A stretch of DNA of 64,000 bases from a virus. Both the position numbers and the translations under genes were made by a program. The stretch is taken from the IMG/VR virus record IMGVR_UViG_3300022926_000006, positions 18,084-82,083 of that record; one strand, written 5' to 3'. This document shows, one piece after another, positions 2,330-63,935 of this stretch (the stretch's first letter is position 1; each line of letters begins with the position of its first letter). The notes under the pieces were generated by a model that did not search any database, was not told the DNA's origin, and saw nothing but the letters and a program-made list of their open reading frames with translations.

Positions 2330-4723
2330 TTATATAAATCTAACAACTTCAATGGTATTTCCATCATTAGGAATTGCAGTCAAATATAATTTGTTACCTA
2401 TAATAACATATTCATGTTGACCTTTCAATTCACCATCTAAAAATACTAGAAGTTTTTGTTCGTTATATGTGTCTTGTACAGTTCCATAAGAATGCTTCTC
2501 GAAAACAAGTTCCCCCAAATCGAAAATTTGTCTAATACCATCACATACGATTGTTAATTTTTTGGTTTCTAAGTTAGTATCTGATGATACACCAGCATAA
2601 GTTGTAATATCGAATATACCAATAACTTCAACAAATGCATCACTTGTAGGTGCGGTGTTAAATGTTAGATTTGTTCCAGTCAATGCATATTCATTATCTC
2701 TATACATTCTACCATTCACATATACTAAAATACCAAAATCATCTGGAGTTGTCGTAGACGTAAATGGTAATGTATAATTGACACTACTACCATCACCTCT
2801 AAACATTGCTTTTCTTCTATTCGCCGCGGCAACTTCAGTACACTTCAAAACTTTCACATTAATTATAGAACCAAACTGAGGTGCTTCATCAAAGAAACAA
2901 ATCTTGTTATTATTTACAAAATATGCTTTGTCTTGCTGTAATACACCATCAATATAGATGATTACAGAGGATTCGCTGTCTGGATGTAATTCAATAGTTC
3001 CGGTTGCTCTATCGTATAGACGAATAAACTTATGGTCACCAACACCAGTTGCAGGATTTCCTGTCATATCAATTTGTAAAGCATCTTGACATGTGGAATC
3101 AAGTCCAGTGAAGAAAATTAGTTCAACAACAACTGGCGCGCCTGTAACAGCATCATCTGAATGACCGGCAGTCCCACCTATAGTTAAAGTATCTGTGGTT
3201 AATGCCCAACTATCTCTGTCCTGAATAATACCGTTGACAATCACCATAAACTTTTGTTCGTTTGCTAAGTTTGAGTTAAATGTCGCTTGGAAGTCTGAAG
3301 TTCTTGCAGTATAACCTGATGTTATGTCAAATGCCGCTGAGGCACCTGTTGTCGACCACACTATACGCTCTACACCAACAGAACCATTAATTGAAACGTC
3401 TAGGTCACTAATTAATCTTTCAATGTCCCTAATTTCAACAAAAGAAGCGTTTTCATCTTCGCCAACAAGTGAACCTATATTAACAGTAGTAATTGCTGAT
3501 CCAGATGGGTCTCCTGGTCCTCCTGCAGTATTGGTATATGTATTATATGGTTGAATAATACCATCTACTGATACTAGATATTCATGTTCATTATTCGTCA
3601 GTGTGTATGCTGTATCTGACAACCATGCATTATCTAATGAATCCCATCTGGTGTTATTAATATCAAAATACTGTTGTCCGTCATTATTGGTAACACTATC
3701 GATAATAACTGTAGCATCATTTGTACTACCTGCTTGATAAATATTCAATGCTTCTGATGTTTGAAATTCTCGCGAGAATTGATTTGCTGTGATGCTGGAA
3801 ATTGAAACGCCAGTTACAACGCCTCCCGCGGCAGTGATATTAACCCATAGTTCATTTCCAGAACCACCATATGCTCTAACATTATTGGCAGTTGTATATC
3901 CACTAGTGCCTGAAGCACCAACAGAAACAGTAGCAGGAACACCCTCAAAGTCTTTAGTCATAATAACTCGTCTACACAGATTTGTATACTGTGCAGGAGA
4001 ACCTTCTTGGAGATTTCTAAACTCAATTTCTGTGTTTTCGGTTAGAACATCATTGTGAACATATTTGTAACCACTTGTAATTAAATATTCGCGCTGGTTA
4101 GATACAATAGCATCGCCGTTATCCGAACTACCTCTACATACAATTACGTTATTTTCATTTTGCACATACTGATGCATAGGAATAATATTCTGATATCCAT
4201 CAGTCTTTTCTCTAGTGCGTCTAATTGCAAGATTGTTTGATGCTAAAGTTTGACCAGTAGGATCAATGATATCATAGATTCCTCTGATTTCTACTTCAGC
4301 ATTAAGAGATGGAACAGTATTAAGAATTACCTTACTACCAGAAAGCACATAATCTCTATCTTGTTGCACTTCACCATTAACGGTAACTAAAACTGAATAT
4401 TCGTTAGGAGGAATAAATCCACAATCAAAAATTCTCTGAATATTATCTGCAATGTGAAGTTTATGTCTGGTAGATTGAATATCTGTTGCCTTAGGCGCAA
4501 CAATGACTAGTTCAGTTCCATCACCTGGTGCGTCAGCAAGAACAACCTTATTAGGATGCTTGAATACCCAATCTTGGTCATTTAGAAACGTACCATCTAA
4601 ATAACACGCCAACTGATTATCAGAATTTGGCACAAAATCTAATGTGAAGATTTTCTGAGTACCATCTCCTAATATTCTTTGTTGTCTTACTTTTACGTCT
4701 GTTGTTCTTCCAATATAAGGCAT
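2330..4723 (-). CDS. modular tail-fibre structural protein (797 aa)
   Basis: The protein is built of repeated 60-90-residue beta modules. Each runs as a DG-x(1-3)-x-FxL strand, then a (V/Y)-(x)-(V/L)DG or VNG turn followed by D-x-(D/E)-(Y/W), then an L-x-x-xP strand. Clear copies lie near residues 15-75, 90-150, 640-710 and 720-797, with more irregular ones between. Such modules are common in fibres and adhesins of marine T4-like phages. GAGAGAG precedes the ATG. It is likely a long fibre or baseplate-attached adhesin; the exact fibre is not identifiable. Confidence 0.75.
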   Translation of the reverse strand: MPYIGRTTDVKVRQQRILGDGTQKIFTLDFVPNSDNQLACYLDGTFLNDQDWVFKHPNKVVLADAPGDGTELVIVAPKATDIQSTRHKLHIADNIQRIFDCGFIPPNEYSVLVTVNGEVQQDRDYVLSGSKVILNTVPSLNAEVEIRGIYDIIDPTGQTLASNNLAIRRTREKTDGYQNIIPMHQYVQNENNVIVCRGSSDNGDAIVSNQREYLITSGYKYVHNDVLTENTEIEFRNLQEGSPAQYTNLCRRVIMTKDFEGVPATVSVGASGTSGYTTANNVRAYGGSGNELWVNITAAGGVVTGVSISSITANQFSREFQTSEALNIYQAGSTNDATVIIDSVTNNDGQQYFDINNTRWDSLDNAWLSDTAYTLTNNEHEYLVSVDGIIQPYNTYTNTAGGPGDPSGSAITTVNIGSLVGEDENASFVEIRDIERLISDLDVSINGSVGVERIVWSTTGASAAFDITSGYTARTSDFQATFNSNLANEQKFMVIVNGIIQDRDSWALTTDTLTIGGTAGHSDDAVTGAPVVVELIFFTGLDSTCQDALQIDMTGNPATGVGDHKFIRLYDRATGTIELHPDSESSVIIYIDGVLQQDKAYFVNNNKICFFDEAPQFGSIINVKVLKCTEVAAANRRKAMFRGDGSSVNYTLPFTSTTTPDDFGILVYVNGRMYRDNEYALTGTNLTFNTAPTSDAFVEVIGIFDITTYAGVSSDTNLETKKLTIVCDGIRQIFDLGELVFEKHSYGTVQDTYNEQKLLVFLDGELKGQHEYVIIGNKLYLTAIPNDGNTIEVVRFI

Positions 4724-16337: not shown

Positions 16338-19328
16338 TTAACTGTCTCTCAAGAAGATTTCACTATCAAACGTGAAATCCGTCTTACGCCCTGGATAATT
16401 TACCAAGTCATCTATAACTAAGTTACCTATGTTCTGAATTTGAGTATTCGCATAAGTATCCCAGTAGTTATTATTTGCTGTGTTCGTGCCAGTATAATTA
16501 CTGGTCATGATAGAACTATTATAGTTATCTCTATAAATTCTACCTCCACGGTCAACGCTTCTAAATCCTATTAATTCTGGAATAATCTTGTCTCCAGTTT
16601 CTAATAAAATATCTTCTCCATCTTCTTTTGTTACTCTTCTATCATCTGCATATGGTGGCATAAGGAACTTGAACCTATCAATTGAGTATCCTGTTGTTCC
16701 TAGTTTTGCGCTTCCAAAACTTTCGTGTAACATAGTATCTTCTAGTCCAAGTGATGCAATTAAATGCAACTTGGATGAAGTAACAACTTTTAAATCATCT
16801 ACACTTGTAATAGTTGGTAGATATAAAGTTACTACTTGTTGTGCCACACTTGCGATACGCGAAAGTTGCTTGTATATTTCAATCTGATGTTTAACACTCG
16901 TATTCATCGTTAAATCATTTACGAGTGCTTCAAATGTATGTATAAGCACAGTAATATCCGGAGTTTCGGAAGTCTTGTTATGCTGATTACCGCCCAAAGT
17001 AGGAATGTTAGGTGCAGTAGGTATCTCAGCAATCACTTCAAGTACTCCACCCCCTCTGATATACAATACGACCTGTTTCAGTAGATTTATTGTAGCATCT
17101 ATATTCGCCATTGGTGTTCTAAATCTTGGGAATATTAAAGTTGGACTTAATCCGAATCCAGGTTCTGTTCCGTGAATATACTCTTCACCTCGTAGATAAT
17201 TTTTACCTTTATTGGACAATGTTTCAAAACTATCTTCCGCCAAAAGATAAGTTCCATCTTCTTTCATTAATCTTGTAGGGAACAATGTTGCTTGCGCCAC
17301 CTCAAAGAATATTTCCAGTTCAAGTTTTTGAAGATGCGGCGTTGTTAATGTTTGTAACAAAATTTCATTCAACAACTTAATTTGTTTAAATCTAGGTGTT
17401 GCTGAGTTTAATCTAAAGTCACTTCCTCCAAATACTCTTGCTCGGACTGAAGTTGAAATTGAAACTTCACCAAATAAAGCAAGACCAACTGGATGAAGAA
17501 TTCTCTTAACCGCATCTCTCCATACGTTAATTGAGTTACCAACTTTGACAACATAAGAAAAGTCTTGATAATATAAACTATCTTGAATTTTTTTAGAACT
17601 TTCAGAGATACGCCCATCTGCTCCAAATAGAACACCTTCACTTCGCGAAACGGTTCCTGTTATTGGATGAATAATTGCTGGATCACAATCATGTATTATT
17701 GCTTCTGCTCCTGACACCGCACCAACAACTCGTATGCGTCCTCTATTCGATGCAAAATTATCAGTAGATGTGGTTGTTCTAATATTATATAAATTACGAG
17801 TATTATCAAAAGATACAATAGTACCAGAAGACAAAACATCATTTTCATCTAATAAACAACTTCCATCTTCCAATAAAATCTCATCACCATCTTCGGCGAG
17901 AATTCTACCGTGTCTTTCGTTTATTATTTCTCCTGGTTGGAATGTTCCAACAATATTCTTTAATATTGCAAGTTGTCTAGGTGTCACTAAAGGCGCAGAA
18001 AAATATCCACTACCTAAGTTTGTTCTCTGCACACCTGAAATTCTACCAATTTCCGTTGACGTTGCATAAATCTCAGCACCAGTACCATTTGTATCATCAA
18101 CTTCAACAGTTGGTAGTGCTTGATAGTTGGAACCAGTATTAACAATTCTAATATCTTGTACAACACCATCATGATCCGCATCTTCAGGTACAATGTGATT
18201 ACCATCTTCTAACAATACTTTATCAACACCACCCTCAGTGACAATTCTTCTAAAGTCCCCAACGAGAATTTTATCTCCGGTTTCAAGTAGAATAGCATCA
18301 CTTTCACCAGATTCCAATACCAATTGTCTTTCAATTCTATTGACATAGGCAACAGAAGAAGTTCCTAAACCTGTATTAGAATATACAATAGCATCTTGTA
18401 GTTGATAATCTTTACCGCCGTTTTCAATAATAAATCCATCAACGCCACCTTTACCTATAGTGGTAATATCAAATTGAGCACCGTTACCAATATCTTCACT
18501 TATAATATTATCACCAGTCTCGGTTAAAATATTATCTCCATCTACCTCTTTAACTATAAATGGAGTTAAGTTTTTTGTGACTAGTGGGTCACTAGGTACA
18601 TAATATGTACCATCATTCGTAATAGTAATGTCAGTAATAATCTCATCAACAATAGCAGTGACAACTTGTCCAGATACAGAATCCGTTACTGTAACAATCT
18701 CACCGGCAACAAACTGTCCACTCACAGAATTTTCAGTTAATACTAGTTGATAAATTTCATCATCACCTACAGCGAAAGCAATAAAGTTCTCAACAAGACC
18801 TGTTGCTAAGTTAACATTAGGTTGTAGTGGTTTGTTTGCTTGTACAATAGTTTGACCAATAAGTAATCCGCTATCACCAACAACATTTTTAATGTTTAGA
18901 ATTGTATCTGATGTAAAGTTACCAGCGGAAACTCGTAACATATCCTTTTTTGGATAATAGACTTCAACTTCTTCATTGAATAACATTCTGAATAATAGTA
19001 TAAGCGACTTATCCGTGCCTTTACTTTGATAAAAGTCTTTTACTCTTTTAAGAAATAATCTCTTATCATTAATAATATTATCTGGAATATCTACAAGATA
19101 ATTTTTCTTAAAGTAAGAAACAAAAGAATCCACAGTTTTATCAATGTCACTATACAAATGTGCGTTTCTAGTACGCTCAATTGCATTACCTTCCAGTTCT
19201 AACCACTCATAGTATGCTTCTATAAAAGCAACAAACGTAGTGTGGTCAGATTGTACAAATTCAGGTAGTTGCTCAGACAATACTGCCGAGACGGTACCCT
19301 TTACTTCATCTGAATTAATATTTAACAT
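16338..19328 (-). CDS. baseplate wedge protein, gp7 position (996 aa)
   Basis: The N-terminal ~130 residues (LPEFVQSDHTTFVAFIEAYYEWLE, then FLKRVKDFYQSKGTDKSLI) form a helical domain that I associate with large baseplate proteins of marine T4-like phages. The middle contains at least six short repeats of the type ETGDxI(I/L)xE or EDGxxIxxE (e.g. LETGDNIISE, LEDGNHIVPE, LEDGDEILLE), a striking acidic beta-repeat. The position between gp6 and gp8 matches T4 gene 7, and the length is near T4 gp7 (1032 aa), but I do not see enough similarity to assign gp7 from sequence alone. It overlaps gp6 by one base. Confidence 0.65.
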   Translation of the reverse strand: MLNINSDEVKGTVSAVLSEQLPEFVQSDHTTFVAFIEAYYEWLELEGNAIERTRNAHLYSDIDKTVDSFVSYFKKNYLVDIPDNIINDKRLFLKRVKDFYQSKGTDKSLILLFRMLFNEEVEVYYPKKDMLRVSAGNFTSDTILNIKNVVGDSGLLIGQTIVQANKPLQPNVNLATGLVENFIAFAVGDDEIYQLVLTENSVSGQFVAGEIVTVTDSVSGQVVTAIVDEIITDITITNDGTYYVPSDPLVTKNLTPFIVKEVDGDNILTETGDNIISEDIGNGAQFDITTIGKGGVDGFIIENGGKDYQLQDAIVYSNTGLGTSSVAYVNRIERQLVLESGESDAILLETGDKILVGDFRRIVTEGGVDKVLLEDGNHIVPEDADHDGVVQDIRIVNTGSNYQALPTVEVDDTNGTGAEIYATSTEIGRISGVQRTNLGSGYFSAPLVTPRQLAILKNIVGTFQPGEIINERHGRILAEDGDEILLEDGSCLLDENDVLSSGTIVSFDNTRNLYNIRTTTSTDNFASNRGRIRVVGAVSGAEAIIHDCDPAIIHPITGTVSRSEGVLFGADGRISESSKKIQDSLYYQDFSYVVKVGNSINVWRDAVKRILHPVGLALFGEVSISTSVRARVFGGSDFRLNSATPRFKQIKLLNEILLQTLTTPHLQKLELEIFFEVAQATLFPTRLMKEDGTYLLAEDSFETLSNKGKNYLRGEEYIHGTEPGFGLSPTLIFPRFRTPMANIDATINLLKQVVLYIRGGGVLEVIAEIPTAPNIPTLGGNQHNKTSETPDITVLIHTFEALVNDLTMNTSVKHQIEIYKQLSRIASVAQQVVTLYLPTITSVDDLKVVTSSKLHLIASLGLEDTMLHESFGSAKLGTTGYSIDRFKFLMPPYADDRRVTKEDGEDILLETGDKIIPELIGFRSVDRGGRIYRDNYNSSIMTSNYTGTNTANNNYWDTYANTQIQNIGNLVIDDLVNYPGRKTDFTFDSEIFLRDS

Positions 19329-40290: not shown

Positions 40291-40509
40291 TTAGCGTTGT
40301 GAAACGAAAGAATTCATCTCATTTGCTAGTTTGCTGATATCTTCGAATGTTGGAAATGCAGGAAGTTCAGGAAAAGAAACATCTAATCCCGCTTCTCTAT
40401 CTGCAAAGTATTTCTCTTTAATATTGCTGATATCAGTGTGATATTGCTCTGTGAGCAGTTGTTTAGCACTCTCAATCATAGAGAAGCGCAAATCGAATGG
40501 ATTACTCAT
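40291..40509 (-). CDS. conserved marine T4-like phage protein (72 aa)
   Basis: MSNPFDLRFSMIESAKQLLTEQYHTDIS opens a helical protein with a Pro-rich middle (FPELPAFPTFEDI). The N-terminal NPFDLRF pattern is one I associate with marine T4-like phages. AAGGAG precedes the ATG. It is the first open frame after the tmRNA coding piece and may share its transcript. Function unknown. Confidence 0.75.
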   Translation of the reverse strand: MSNPFDLRFSMIESAKQLLTEQYHTDISNIKEKYFADREAGLDVSFPELPAFPTFEDISKLANEMNSFVSQR

Positions 40510-40539
40510 ACTATTTCTCCTTGTGTGTATGTGTGTAAA

Positions 40540-40909
40540 ATGTAGGGTGAAGCAATTGCTTCTTCTGTTTCCAGGCGTCCCTACGACACCCAGAAGATTA
40601 TGCCGCTAGGCGAATATCTTCATATGCAATGTTATCGTTTGCATTTACTTTGTTTTGACTTATTAGGCGGTCATCCCACAGTTCTACTCTTTCCTGTTTA
40701 CGTCAGTCGATCCTATTTCGCCCCCATCATAATTACTCGATTTACCAACACCAGATAGATATCTTATTGGTGTCTTTTCTTGTATCTTAAACAGTTTTAT
40801 AAAAAACTCTGTTAGTCTATCAAACATATTGTCCTCAAGTAATTATGGTGGAGGCGGTGGGTATCGCACCCACGTCCTGCCCGTCATTCAGATTGTATCA
40901 ACAAACTGT
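40540..40909 (-). ncRNA. ssrA: circularly permuted (two-piece) tmRNA
   Basis: Read on the minus strand, the acceptor piece comes first (40909-40846). It has a T-arm GUGGG-UGCGAUA-CCCAC, 3' strand CGCCUCC, A73 and encoded CCA at 40846-40848. A 120-base intervening segment (40845-40726) follows. Then comes the coding piece from 40725, starting GGGGGCG, which pairs with CGCCUCC over 7 bp with G3-U70, the alanyl-tRNA synthetase identity pair, and continuing AAAUAGGAUCGACU as in tmRNA 5' ends. The tag frame (40642-40598) reads ANDNIAYEDIRLAA then TAA. A GUAGGG/CCCUAC stem enclosing GAAGC/GCUUC hairpin follows. This permuted form is the alphaproteobacterial type. Exact ends are estimated. Confidence 0.92.
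40684..40827 (-). CDS. possible 47-aa frame in the tmRNA intervening segment
   Basis: TTGAGGA stands 5 bases before an ATG in the tmRNA intervening segment. The frame starts MFDRLTEFFIKLFKIQEKTP and runs on into the tmRNA 5' body, ending at TAG. The first ~35 codons are in the part expected to be removed on maturation. It may be chance, a remnant, or a translated leader of the precursor. Confidence 0.3.
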   Translation of the reverse strand: MFDRLTEFFIKLFKIQEKTPIRYLSGVGKSSNYDGGEIGSTDVNRKE

Positions 40910-40915
40910 ACATTA

Positions 40916-40944
40916 TATATAACATGCTTTGATGTAAATGTCAA
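40916..40944 (-). promoter_or_regulatory. sigma70-type promoter for the tmRNA
   Basis: TTGACA, 17 bases, TATATA on the minus strand, with the start expected near 40909, just before the acceptor piece. The -35 overlaps the end of the 121-aa gene. Confidence 0.75.
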
Positions 40945-41306
40945 GTAGTAATTCCATTATTACCAAAAATACTGTTATACTCTAATTCACCTCCATCTGA
41001 TATAACGCAAGTTACATTTGCTGATGGAAGAAATTCTAATATTGTGACTGTACCTTTGTCTTTGTTAACTAGAACTTCGACAATACTAGGTAGTGTAGTT
41101 TTGTATCTAATCATTCCAACTTCGCCGTACTCATTCGCGAATTCTGCTTTTACTTCGTTGTATGGTTTCTTAGTACAGACAACAGGTTTTTGTCCTTGTC
41201 TATATTCATGTTCTGAATTATCTTGAGCAAATGTGATGCTGGATAAAAATGTTAGACACCATACCAATACAATAACATCAAATACCCATGACTTTCTGAT
41301 ATTCAT
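40941..41306 (-). CDS. exported protein (121 aa)
   Basis: A signal peptide (VFDVIVLVWCLTFLSSITFAQ) with an AQD cleavage site precedes an ~95-residue beta-rich domain with two Cys (VVCTKKP and NVTCVISD), which could form one disulfide. It overlaps the nuclease gene by 29 bases and the tmRNA promoter by 4. AGAGAGG precedes the ATG. The role is unknown; a periplasmic product among replication genes is unusual. Confidence 0.72.
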   Translation of the reverse strand: MNIRKSWVFDVIVLVWCLTFLSSITFAQDNSEHEYRQGQKPVVCTKKPYNEVKAEFANEYGEVGMIRYKTTLPSIVEVLVNKDKGTVTILEFLPSANVTCVISDGGELEYNSIFGNNGITT

Positions 41307-61955: not shown

Positions 61956-61984
61956 AGTATAGCACAGTGAGTAACAGTTGTCAA
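61956..61984 (-). promoter_or_regulatory. sigma70-type promoter, tandem copy A
   Basis: TTGACA, 17 bases, TATACT on the minus strand. It shares GTGC before the -10 with copy B. Confidence 0.78.
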
Positions 61985-62018
61985 CAGTTATTTTTCAGTG
62001 GCGTGCAGTTAAAGTTTC

Positions 62019-62047
62019 AGTATAGCACATATGGCAACTGTTGTCAA
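62019..62047 (-). promoter_or_regulatory. sigma70-type promoter, tandem copy B
   Basis: TTGACA, 17 bases, TATACT on the minus strand, 63 bases from copy A. Its -35 box begins just past the T-run of the terminator upstream. Confidence 0.78.
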
Positions 62048-62051
62048 GTAA

Positions 62052-62103
62052 AAAATAAAAAAAAGCGACACCCTACAACCCTTTGTCAGTAAGGGTTACA
62101 GGG
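62052..62103 (-). terminator. intrinsic terminator (minus strand)
   Basis: A 13-bp stem (62071-62083 with 62091-62103, loop of 7) that pairs fully only as minus-strand RNA (two G-U pairs are A/C mismatches on the other strand), followed by a long T-run. It ends the small-gene operon 62154-62721. Confidence 0.85.
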
Positions 62104-62153
62104 CATCGCCGAGACAACGTAGGGAGAAAGGGAGAGAAAAACCCTACTAGTCT

Positions 62154-62402
62154 CTAACTTGCAGTCGCGTCTACTCGTTCTACGCCACACAGTTTGTAAC
62201 CGGTGACCTTGCGACCGTCTTTGAGTGGGATCACACCATAGGGTGTCTTTGTTTTAATTTCCCACATATACGTTGAGATGCGGTACATGTTCACGCCTGC
62301 TATCTCACACTGTTGTTTGAACTCATCTATAGTAGCAGTATAGTTATCTGCTTCTTTCAGTACGTTCAGTACTTTTTCATATTGACCCATTGCTTTTGCC
62401 AT
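62154..62402 (-). CDS. hypothetical protein (82 aa)
   Basis: MAKAMGQYEKVLNVLKEADNYTATIDEFKQQCEIAGVNMYRISTYMWEIKTKT ... KDGRKVTGYKLCG has helix-helix-helix then a beta wing, a winged-helix-like layout. That could make it a small DNA-binding protein. AAGGAGT precedes the ATG. The last gene before the terminator. Confidence 0.66.
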   Translation of the reverse strand: MAKAMGQYEKVLNVLKEADNYTATIDEFKQQCEIAGVNMYRISTYMWEIKTKTPYGVIPLKDGRKVTGYKLCGVERVDATAS

Positions 62403-62405
62403 TAT

Positions 62406-62588
62406 CTACTCCTTATCATATGTAACGAATGCTACACCAATCATTGCGAAACCTGCTAATGCGAACAGTAGTACTTCAGTGATTGACAGTGCGTTCTCCA
62501 TACACTTGCCATCACAGTCGCTACCTACAGCGCCTAGTACTAATAGAAGTCCGGTGATGCCTAATGCACCCGCGATTATATTACGCAT
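62406..62588 (-). CDS. small two-span membrane protein (60 aa)
   Basis: Two membrane helices (IIAGALGITGLLLVLGAV and EVLLFALAGFAMIGVAFV) flank a loop with D-C-D-G-K-C-M. Its ATG overlaps the previous stop by 8 bases. Early-promoter context and small size suggest an inner-membrane modifier; not a typical late holin. Confidence 0.7.
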   Translation of the reverse strand: MRNIIAGALGITGLLLVLGAVGSDCDGKCMENALSITEVLLFALAGFAMIGVAFVTYDKE

Positions 62589-62721
62589 ACTGACGTACCT
62601 CTACTAAGTTGATTGCGTTAACACCAAATGTGCCGTCTGCGAGAATAGCATCACACTGCTCTTCTGTCAGCGCGGTAACTATCTGCGTTTCACCATTCAA
62701 TTTAAATTCAATCTCAAACAT
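62581..62721 (-). CDS. small protein (46 aa)
   Basis: ATG at 62721 opens MFEIEFKLNGETQIVTALTE, then EQCDAILADGTFGVNAINLV. It is a beta-beta-alpha-beta mini-fold and the first gene after the promoter at 62753. It overlaps the membrane gene by 8 bases. Confidence 0.66.
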   Translation of the reverse strand: MFEIEFKLNGETQIVTALTEEQCDAILADGTFGVNAINLVEVRQYA

Positions 62722-62752
62722 ATTCACTCACTTTCATTATCATTATATACAC

Positions 62753-62781
62753 AGTATATCACAGTCTTATACAGATGTCAA
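62753..62781 (-). promoter_or_regulatory. sigma70-type promoter
   Basis: TTGACA, 17 bases, TATACT on the minus strand, about 32 bases before the ATG at 62721. Confidence 0.8.
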
Positions 62782-62789
62782 GCACTATT

Positions 62790-62999
62790 TTACACTTTTG
62801 CCGCCCAATACTCATTAAAGCATTCAGTAGCAACATCATTGATAATCTTACCATCGATGTATTCAGGTAACATTTCATCAAGTTTTTCAACTAGTTCAGT
62901 GACATGCTCACACTCAGCAACAAGCGCATCAGTAATAACATCGAATACGTCTTGCTCCATAGCGAGAGTTCTGATTGGTTTAGTCATATCGTAATTCAT
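62790..62999 (-). CDS. small acidic protein (69 aa)
   Basis: MNYDMTKPIRTLAMEQDVFDVITDALVAECEHVTELVEKLDEML is acidic and helical, ending FNEYWAAKV. AAGGA lies 8 bases before the ATG. Its ~115-base leader folds into the structured element at 63023-63104, which suggests post-transcriptional control. Confidence 0.66.
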   Translation of the reverse strand: MNYDMTKPIRTLAMEQDVFDVITDALVAECEHVTELVEKLDEMLPEYIDGKIINDVATECFNEYWAAKV

Positions 63000-63022
63000 A
63001 ATATATTCCTTTTAAAGTTCAT

Positions 63023-63104
63023 AGAGACTTGCAGTTCAATCTAGTATCGCGCCAGTTCTCCCTTAGGGACATGCAGTTAATCTAGCGATACGCCAGTAGT
63101 CTCT
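63023..63104 (-). ncRNA. structured 5' leader RNA, candidate cis-regulator
   Basis: As minus-strand RNA it starts AGAGACU and ends AGUCUCU, which close a 7-bp outer stem. Inside, two near-repeats (ACUGGCG ... CUAGAUU-(G)-AACUGCA) flank a UCCC-UAA-GGGA hairpin, and GUAUCGC of the first pairs with GCGAUAC of the second. The promoter start lies ~11 bases before, and the 69-aa gene's SD ~10 bases after. No known riboswitch class recognised. Confidence 0.6.
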
Positions 63105-63121
63105 ATCTCGACTATGTTTAT

Positions 63122-63150
63122 AGTATAGCAAAGACAATGGCAATTGTCAA
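63122..63150 (-). promoter_or_regulatory. sigma70-type promoter
   Basis: TTGACA, 17 bases, TATACT on the minus strand, start expected near 63115. Confidence 0.82.
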
Positions 63151-63431
63151 GCATTATTTTCACTTTTTTTCACTTTTTTTTAAAATAGTTGGTAACTGTT
63201 GCATTTTTGCAACACACACAGAGAAAGTACTTGACGGCGGTCCGCTTGTATGCTAGAGCAACTTTTCACCCAACAATATTTTAATTATAATTTATTATCG
63301 TTTATTCGCCCTTTTCGATAGTCACTGTATACATAAACATACACAAAACTACACGAAACTTACCGATATTCACATGATATTTCACAAACATTCATACTAT
63401 TCTATTCTATGTGAACTGTTGTGTATTCGTA
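63151..63431. other. gene-free AT-rich stretch
   Basis: It holds two copies of a T-run plus CAC, a GTTGCA/TGCAAC hairpin (63198-63213) that could end the leftward oxygenase transcript, and a TTGACG without a properly spaced -10. From 63240 to 63431 I see nothing but low-complexity AT-rich sequence with repeated CA-ACA words. Confidence 0.4.
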
Positions 63432-63935
63432 TTATACCTTCTCTTTTGTAAGGATATTCACTGTTACTCTTCTATCTGTGTATGGTGAACTTGCTGAATG
63501 AAGCATTGCGCTATTGAATACTATACAACTATTCTCTACTGGTTCGACTTTACCATTCGGCATGAAATTTGTAGCACCTGTTGTCGTATGAGGATAATAT
63601 AGAATGCTTATAAAATTTGTTTCATGTACATCATCTCTATGTAACGGATGTTCTTTGTGTGGTGGCAGAAGACAATTGACTTTCATATGACAGATTTCTT
63701 TCAACTGCTTATTTTCTGCTTCGTATATATCATTCACTAGTTTTTCGAATACAGAATAAAGATACTCGTTCAATATACCATGCTGAGGATGATATATGTG
63801 ATGTTCGAACTGTTGTGGATGTGTTCCGTCTGCGTTACCTGCTTGATAATGCCATGTGAATTTATCACTTAGAATATAGTCTCTCACTTGCTCATGATTG
63901 TCTATTACATTATCATATTGTGTTACATTTATCAT
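63432..63935 (-). CDS. 2OG-Fe(II) oxygenase (167 aa)
   Basis: The triad is visible: HPLHRDDVHETNFISILYYPH gives H99-R-D101, NSCIVFNSAMLHSAS gives H146, and R155/R156 in TDRRVTVNI binds 2-oxoglutarate. The G-A-T-N-F strand lies between them. It resembles prolyl-4-hydroxylase-like small enzymes. It has the HxD form, unlike the HxH copies at 50086 and 56119. GAAGAG precedes the ATG. Confidence 0.82.
   Translation of the reverse strand: MINVTQYDNVIDNHEQVRDYILSDKFTWHYQAGNADGTHPQQFEHHIYHPQHGILNEYLYSVFEKLVNDIYEAENKQLKEICHMKVNCLLPPHKEHPLHRDDVHETNFISILYYPHTTTGATNFMPNGKVEPVENSCIVFNSAMLHSASSPYTDRRVTVNILTKEKV

Follow-up and report, generated by a model that had tools for sequence, protein, structure and literature searches.

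Introduction

Phages have so far yielded few structured RNAs, and many of them are common to the hosts. The put RNAs of phage HK022 bind RNA polymerase directly at the 5′ end of early transcripts and antiterminate, and they can work without a phage protein, while the guanidine-II riboswitch has paired or tandem aptamers. We know of no small cis-acting RNA in which one module occurs singly, as a symmetric double and in nested series. The manA, wcaG and PhotoRC-II RNAs occur in marine T4-like phages, for the most part in putative 5′ UTRs (PMC2864571). Type III toxin-antitoxin RNAs and abiF RNA (PMC9964418) consist of small units that recur in front of a gene for a small protein in phages. In PMC7029224, two phage groups were searched with a riboswitch tool, which found none in either.

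Here we describe a leader RNA in a 64,000-nt stretch of virus DNA (the window; positions 18,084 to 82,083 of the 82,083-base record IMGVR_UViG_3300022926_000006), the record of which bears T4-like baseplate, SSB and helicase-loader genes. Judged by sequence comparison, the leader is a real folded RNA in which one small module occurs twice in mirror placement. That module also precedes genes unrelated to each other in uncultured phages of several kinds, and so it looks like a family of phage RNA that is undescribed and has a predicted regulatory role. Like manA, wcaG and PhotoRC-II, it is a structured RNA of marine T4-like phages and lies mostly in what are putative 5′ UTRs, but those RNAs lie beside carbohydrate, photosynthesis and stress genes, whereas the present class lies beside unrelated small genes and has no Rfam match. 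With the type III and abiF RNAs it shares repeated small RNA units before a small protein gene in phages, but it precedes several unrelated gene families, matches no Rfam family and is mostly single copy; type III antitoxins are recognized by tandem pseudoknot repeats with an endoribonuclease gene, and no such family or fold was found among the scanned proteins. Like HK022 put, it is a phage RNA that probably stands at the 5′ end of transcripts made early. Guanidine-II likewise has two copies of one motif with pseudo-symmetry, but the motif is another one, and the present class is without metabolic genes or an Rfam match.

Results and Discussion

Architecture of the leader in the window

A prior reading made from the letters alone (the sequence-only reading) had proposed a strong promoter, a structured leader and the ribosome-binding site of a 69-aa gene. 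Promoter, ribosome site and ORF were as it described, by sequence and by an ORF and promoter check; the outer stem is present and extends to a 9-bp helix (P1), the element measuring 86 nt (Table 1). The inner GUAUCGC/GCGAUAC pairing and the repeats it had pointed out are exact: two copies of ACUGGC-7 nt-UAGAUU(G)AACUGCA are spaced 41 nt apart with UCCC-UAA-GGGA between them, and the first has the 7-nt centre GUAUCGC, the second its exact reverse complement GCGAUAC. When the RNA is drawn, ACUGGC lies opposite UAGAUU.AACUGCA on either side of the central helix (P2), giving near two-fold symmetry. The apical stem had been missed, as had the fact that both repeats are one internal-loop motif, two-fold symmetric about the central helix; the single-module forms and the P3-bearing form described below occur in other loci and were not visible to that reading. 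Its proposal of a symmetric fold or two ligand or protein sites stands in modified form, as two module copies sharing one helix, close to the arrangement in homologs, with the sites returning below as a prediction. It had recognized no described class, and the window element matched no Rfam family; its interpretation as a whole is partly supported.

Table 1. Positions of the promoter, the parts of the leader RNA and the downstream gene within the window.
Feature	Position	Strand	Basis or remark
Sigma-70-like promoter TTGACA-17-TATACT	63122–63150	-	11/12 consensus bases, TG before -10
Whole double-module leader RNA element, 86 nt	63021–63106	-	R1 and R3 matches
P1, 5′ strand AUAGAGACU	63098–63106	-	sequence; pairs counted in covariation test
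Module A conserved strand ACUGGC	63092–63097	-	sequence; CUGG invariant in alignment A3
Shared central helix P2, first strand GUAUCGC	63085–63091	-	covaries with 63044–63050
Module B conserved strand UAGAUUAACUGCA	63072–63084	-	sequence and alignments
Apical stem-loop UCCC-UAA-GGGA (module B P1)	63059–63069	-	sequence; covariation
Module B conserved strand ACUGGC	63051–63056	-	sequence and alignment A3
Shared central helix P2, second strand GCGAUAC	63044–63050	-	covariation
Module A conserved strand UAGAUUGAACUGCA	63030–63043	-	sequence and alignment A3
P1, 3′ strand AGUCUCUAU	63021–63029	-	covariation
Shine-Dalgarno-like AAAAGGA	63007–63013	-	sequence
69-aa ORF	62790–62999	-	predicted all-helical, mean pLDDT 79

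The 64-kb window holds one such element. The covariance model R1, built from double forms, scores it at 100.8 bits, the window itself being in the R1 alignment. Four promoters scoring TTGACA-17-TATACT lie within 1.2 kb (61956–63150, minus strand), and the element is found behind only the one at 63150.

Thermodynamics by itself lends the fold no support, since the MFE z-scores of the leader (-0.58 and -0.85) were not significant. The drawn nested structure has a computed energy of -18.5 kcal/mol against -23.6 for the MFE structure, and P2 a computed probability of 0.09. Because MFE folding prefers local CUGG/CUAG hairpins to the shared helix, P2 of the double form may be a loop-loop contact instead of one helix. 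Doubles may be kissing hairpins, in which CUGG/CUAG hairpins pair through their loops, but in single modules P2 is an ordinary helix.

Compensatory changes in the double forms

A protein search with the window gene returned near-identical contigs and nothing more diverged. Word scans of IMG/VR yielded three diverged double forms (L133/L157, L165, and L162 with L167, the element rows of the last two being identical); L163, L164 and L166, among nine stretches in that scan, had one word only and were dropped. In these forms the centres of P2 vary yet stay complementary (UAUCG/CGAUA in the window, CAUCG/CGAUG in L157, AAACG/CGUUU in L165 and UGUUG/CAACA in L162). Alignment A3 consists of four distinct rows, chosen by words and a second copy, and 93.8% of its cells pair. 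Nine pairs were changed on both sides as compared with a shuffled mean of 2.8, a count that includes the nearly invariant CUGG/CUAG pairs, which are uninformative either way; none of 500 shuffles was as high, and slid controls gave at most two double-sided pair changes. Such changes occurred in four of the five counted pairs of P2 and in three of the six pairs of the apical stem (helix 4).

Two copies 41 bp apart behind a promoter could also be direct repeats bound by a repressor, that is, an operator at the DNA level. However, the compensatory changes track RNA pairing, the P2 centre changes freely without losing complementarity, and single copies retain their stems, so we strongly disfavour an operator and find it scarcely credible.

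Single modules, a third helix and nesting

R1 also matched a single module in another contig (L013; 24.7 bits, E 0.015), which reads AGCCGCU-ACUGGC-GCCC-AUAC-GGGC-UAGAUUAACUGAA-AGCGGCU and is followed by a ribosome site. The final viral word scan gave 65 matches, six of them with a P2 of at least 4 bp (L013, L210, L218, L224, L235 and L258, of which L224 and L258 are the same element). A promoter score of at least 9 was seen in all six as opposed to 10 of the 59 others, and none of the six lay inside an open frame of at least 100 codons as opposed to 54 of the 59. A relaxed descriptor run on 264 sequences gave seven distinct matches, compared with 0, 0, 0, 1 and 0 in five dinucleotide shuffles; two of the seven were known earlier from words, and the other five lie in L218, L224 and L235, loci that had been fetched for another module. 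In these five, the AUUNA turn is replaced by a small hairpin, P3 (e.g., CCCA-UUG-UGGG in L218b). Because P3 can stand in for AUUNA, the unit is best described as a three-way junction. By eye, P3 is seen in L235b, L218b, L218c, L218d, L224b and unit 1 of L162 (which also has UCUGG instead of ACUGG); the window has AUUA and AUUGA and no P3. From these alignments we take the general module to be an RNA junction of the form P1-ACUGGM-P2-UAR-[AUUNA or small hairpin P3]-ACUGMA-P1′, the strands ACUGGM, UAR and ACUGMA being present in both window modules.

Modules can also be stacked: in L218 (~2994–3125), read by eye, three are nested, one module's P2 serving as the P1 of the following one, and the 6.6-kb contig carries three further modules besides. 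In the region 2880–3230 of this contig, a leader of ~300 nt holds the nested trio followed by a fourth module, and a 78-aa gene of the TQ..ENYG family comes next. Such a stack, like the double in the window, is what one might expect of a decoy whose modules mop up a host RNA-binding factor or defence signal, with the gene incidental. Most elements, however, occur as single copies that closely precede a start codon, and there was no Rfam match to abiF or another type III-like antitoxin RNA; we regard titration by a decoy as highly unlikely.

Loci kept from the viral scans were L133, L162, L165, L167, L213 (doubtful), L218, L224, L235, L258 and L210 along with the known contigs; others were dropped as being without a second copy or without stems. 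With a looser pattern (ACTGGCG-N4-10-CTAGATT), the loci among the matches listed were chance matches, mostly coding, except for near-identical contigs and L013.

An independent model

A second covariance model, R3, was built from nine single modules, hand-padded with N, and includes neither a double form nor the window. Covariation in the singles amounted to 39 double-change cells against 14.1, a figure that is inflated because several modules were chosen partly by their stems, and we thus do not rest the main case on it. R3 recovered the two window modules (23.6 and 22.8 bits; E 4.8e-4 and 8.0e-4), both in the records of L003 and L157 and one in that of L165, and was weak on L162 (14.8 bits) and L167 (13.6 bits). 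At E ≤ 0.5, it matched 13 of 16 records, G002 (L159), G003 and C48C1 being unmatched.

The proposal of a structured RNA is therefore backed by comparison, both by the compensatory changes and by the recovery of both modules with R3. The sequence-only reading had named two outcomes that would tell against it, a lack of compensatory changes in homologs and a purely coding explanation. Double-sided pair changes were found, and we reject the coding explanation because the copies, 41 nt apart and differing by single-base indels, are frameshifted and contain in-frame stops.

Distribution

Scanning against Rfam 15 at the gathering threshold (cmscan) gave tRNA and tmRNA only, with no family on the element, and nothing convincing was seen on it at E ≤ 10 and E ≤ 5, homolog loci included. 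No description of the element appears in the open-access literature searched, an absence that is not proof. R3 matched none of 385 alphaproteobacterial and none of 369 gammaproteobacterial genomes (0/754; labels rest on each set's centre genome), which is weak evidence of absence because the filters were strict and there was no positive control. A word scan of genome contigs gave six matches, all dropped. Among the named phages HMO-2011, MEP401, MEP402, CRP-345, CRP-603, CRP-9 and C48C1, four of seven matched at E ≤ 1, which we took as chance; the one locus examined, that of the best match (CRP-345, 17.9 bits), had no clear element.

A compact junction with ~14 conserved unpaired nucleotides and variable stems, occurring in tandem and double copies, recalls a riboswitch, in which each junction would bind a small molecule and doubles would serve cooperative sensing. 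However, the downstream genes encode unrelated small proteins without metabolic families, none of the 754 bacterial genomes was matched, and no expression platform is obvious, which makes a riboswitch quite unlikely. In the 30 nt downstream of the element, the mean unpaired probability was 0.40–0.79.

Placement and downstream genes

Fourteen elements were compared for their anatomy, including the doubtful L213 and leaving out the nested stack of L218. A promoter score of at least 9 was found for 10 of the 14 (that of L162 was 8), with 9–25 nt from the end of the -10 box to the start of P1, and in 12 of the 14 an ORF of 40 aa or more had its start codon 14–23 nt 3′ of the element. From the promoter positions in these 10, we infer that the elements lie at the 5′ end of early transcripts. 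Among the remainder, the contig of L165 ends before a start codon could be scored, and L218b lies behind the nested stack within a long leader. Two elements, L218c and the doubtful L213, are at gene ends with no promoter ahead; the former, after a stop codon, directly precedes a U-run and the latter an intrinsic terminator, each the only such case.

Such placement bears on two further explanations. An element that occupies the greater part of the leader, running from close to the start site as far as the ribosome site, could be a passive 5′ stabilizer or insulator that protects short early mRNAs against 5′-end-dependent decay with no partner. A passive stem would, however, have no need of CUGG, UAR and ACUGMA held invariant across stems and phages, and we think this very unlikely. 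The second is antitermination by an RNA that would bind directly to RNA polymerase from its place at the 5′ end of an early transcript, as HK022 put does: the elements stand directly behind sigma-70-like promoters and are so far found in phages only, unrelated phages need a common host partner, of which RNA polymerase is one, and the U-run of L218c and the terminator of L213 follow their elements at once. Nevertheless, many elements head short transcription units and not long terminator-bearing operons, and so we consider antitermination unlikely.

The downstream genes belong to several families, and none of the scanned proteins had a convincing Pfam or PHROGs match or a hit in structure searches. 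One is the 69-aa family, found behind the element at the window, L157 and L165; the homolog in L157/L133 is 42% identical. In L159, the syntenic gene (35% over 65 aa) and the promoter are kept and the element is absent, so the 69-aa gene does not need the element. Between the window (62154–62999) and L157, the leader and the 69-aa gene have diverged (42% protein identity) and their neighbours are near-identical, as if the cassette of leader and gene had been swapped or were under diversifying selection. A second family has TQxxENYG near its start (L162, L167, L013, L218 and L267) and is behind the element at four loci (L162, L167, L013 and L218b); it had no convincing Pfam or PHROG match, and the C48C1 record, which has a homolog, showed no element by R3 at E ≤ 0.5.

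Proposed function

What the alignments establish, as far as sequence can, is the set of conserved junction strands, the compensatory changes in P1, P2 and the apical stem, the variety of genes downstream and the placement between promoter and ribosome site. A leader that binds a factor fits best with freely varying stems around conserved junction strands, one or more copies and a 5′ position near ribosome sites. We thus give about an even chance to a phage-borne, cis-acting 5′-UTR RNA of an undescribed class, the modules of which are candidate factor-binding sites acting on early mRNAs. Each module would offer one site to a trans-acting factor, most probably a protein encoded by the infected host or the phage, and the double form would bind two copies of it. 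Occupancy at the 5′ end of the transcript, 14–23 nt before the start codon, might then set translation initiation or the lifetime of early mRNAs. No RNA-binding protein family was common to all of the element-bearing contigs, which are partial; PhoH-like genes were present in four of six groupings of these contigs and are generic. Because the phages look unrelated and no such family is shared, a host partner is plausible, and were it RNA polymerase, the element would be put-like.

A further, somewhat unlikely reading is a polymerizable junction (single, symmetric pair or nested series), common to unrelated marine phages, which would recruit or titrate a conserved host machine and so favour early mRNAs without a phage protein; candidates are RNA polymerase, the ribosome, a decay enzyme or a defence factor. 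The element appears phage-specific so far and recurs before different early genes in T4-like and other phages. Should it act via a host machine, it would give phages a compact and portable mark for their early mRNAs and would offer a way to host factors in marine bacteria that are difficult to approach by genetics.

Two other features of the window were noted. A 167-aa gene (63432–63935, minus strand; PHROG 274, weak 2OG-Fe(II) oxygenase) is missing in two contigs that are 99.7–99.9% identical on its left flank, the alignment jumping from 63420 to 63932 or 63947. At 40507–40948 (minus strand) lies a permuted (two-piece) alpha-type tmRNA gene (RF04321, 108 bits; RF01849, 104 bits) with the tag ANDNIAYEDIRLAA.
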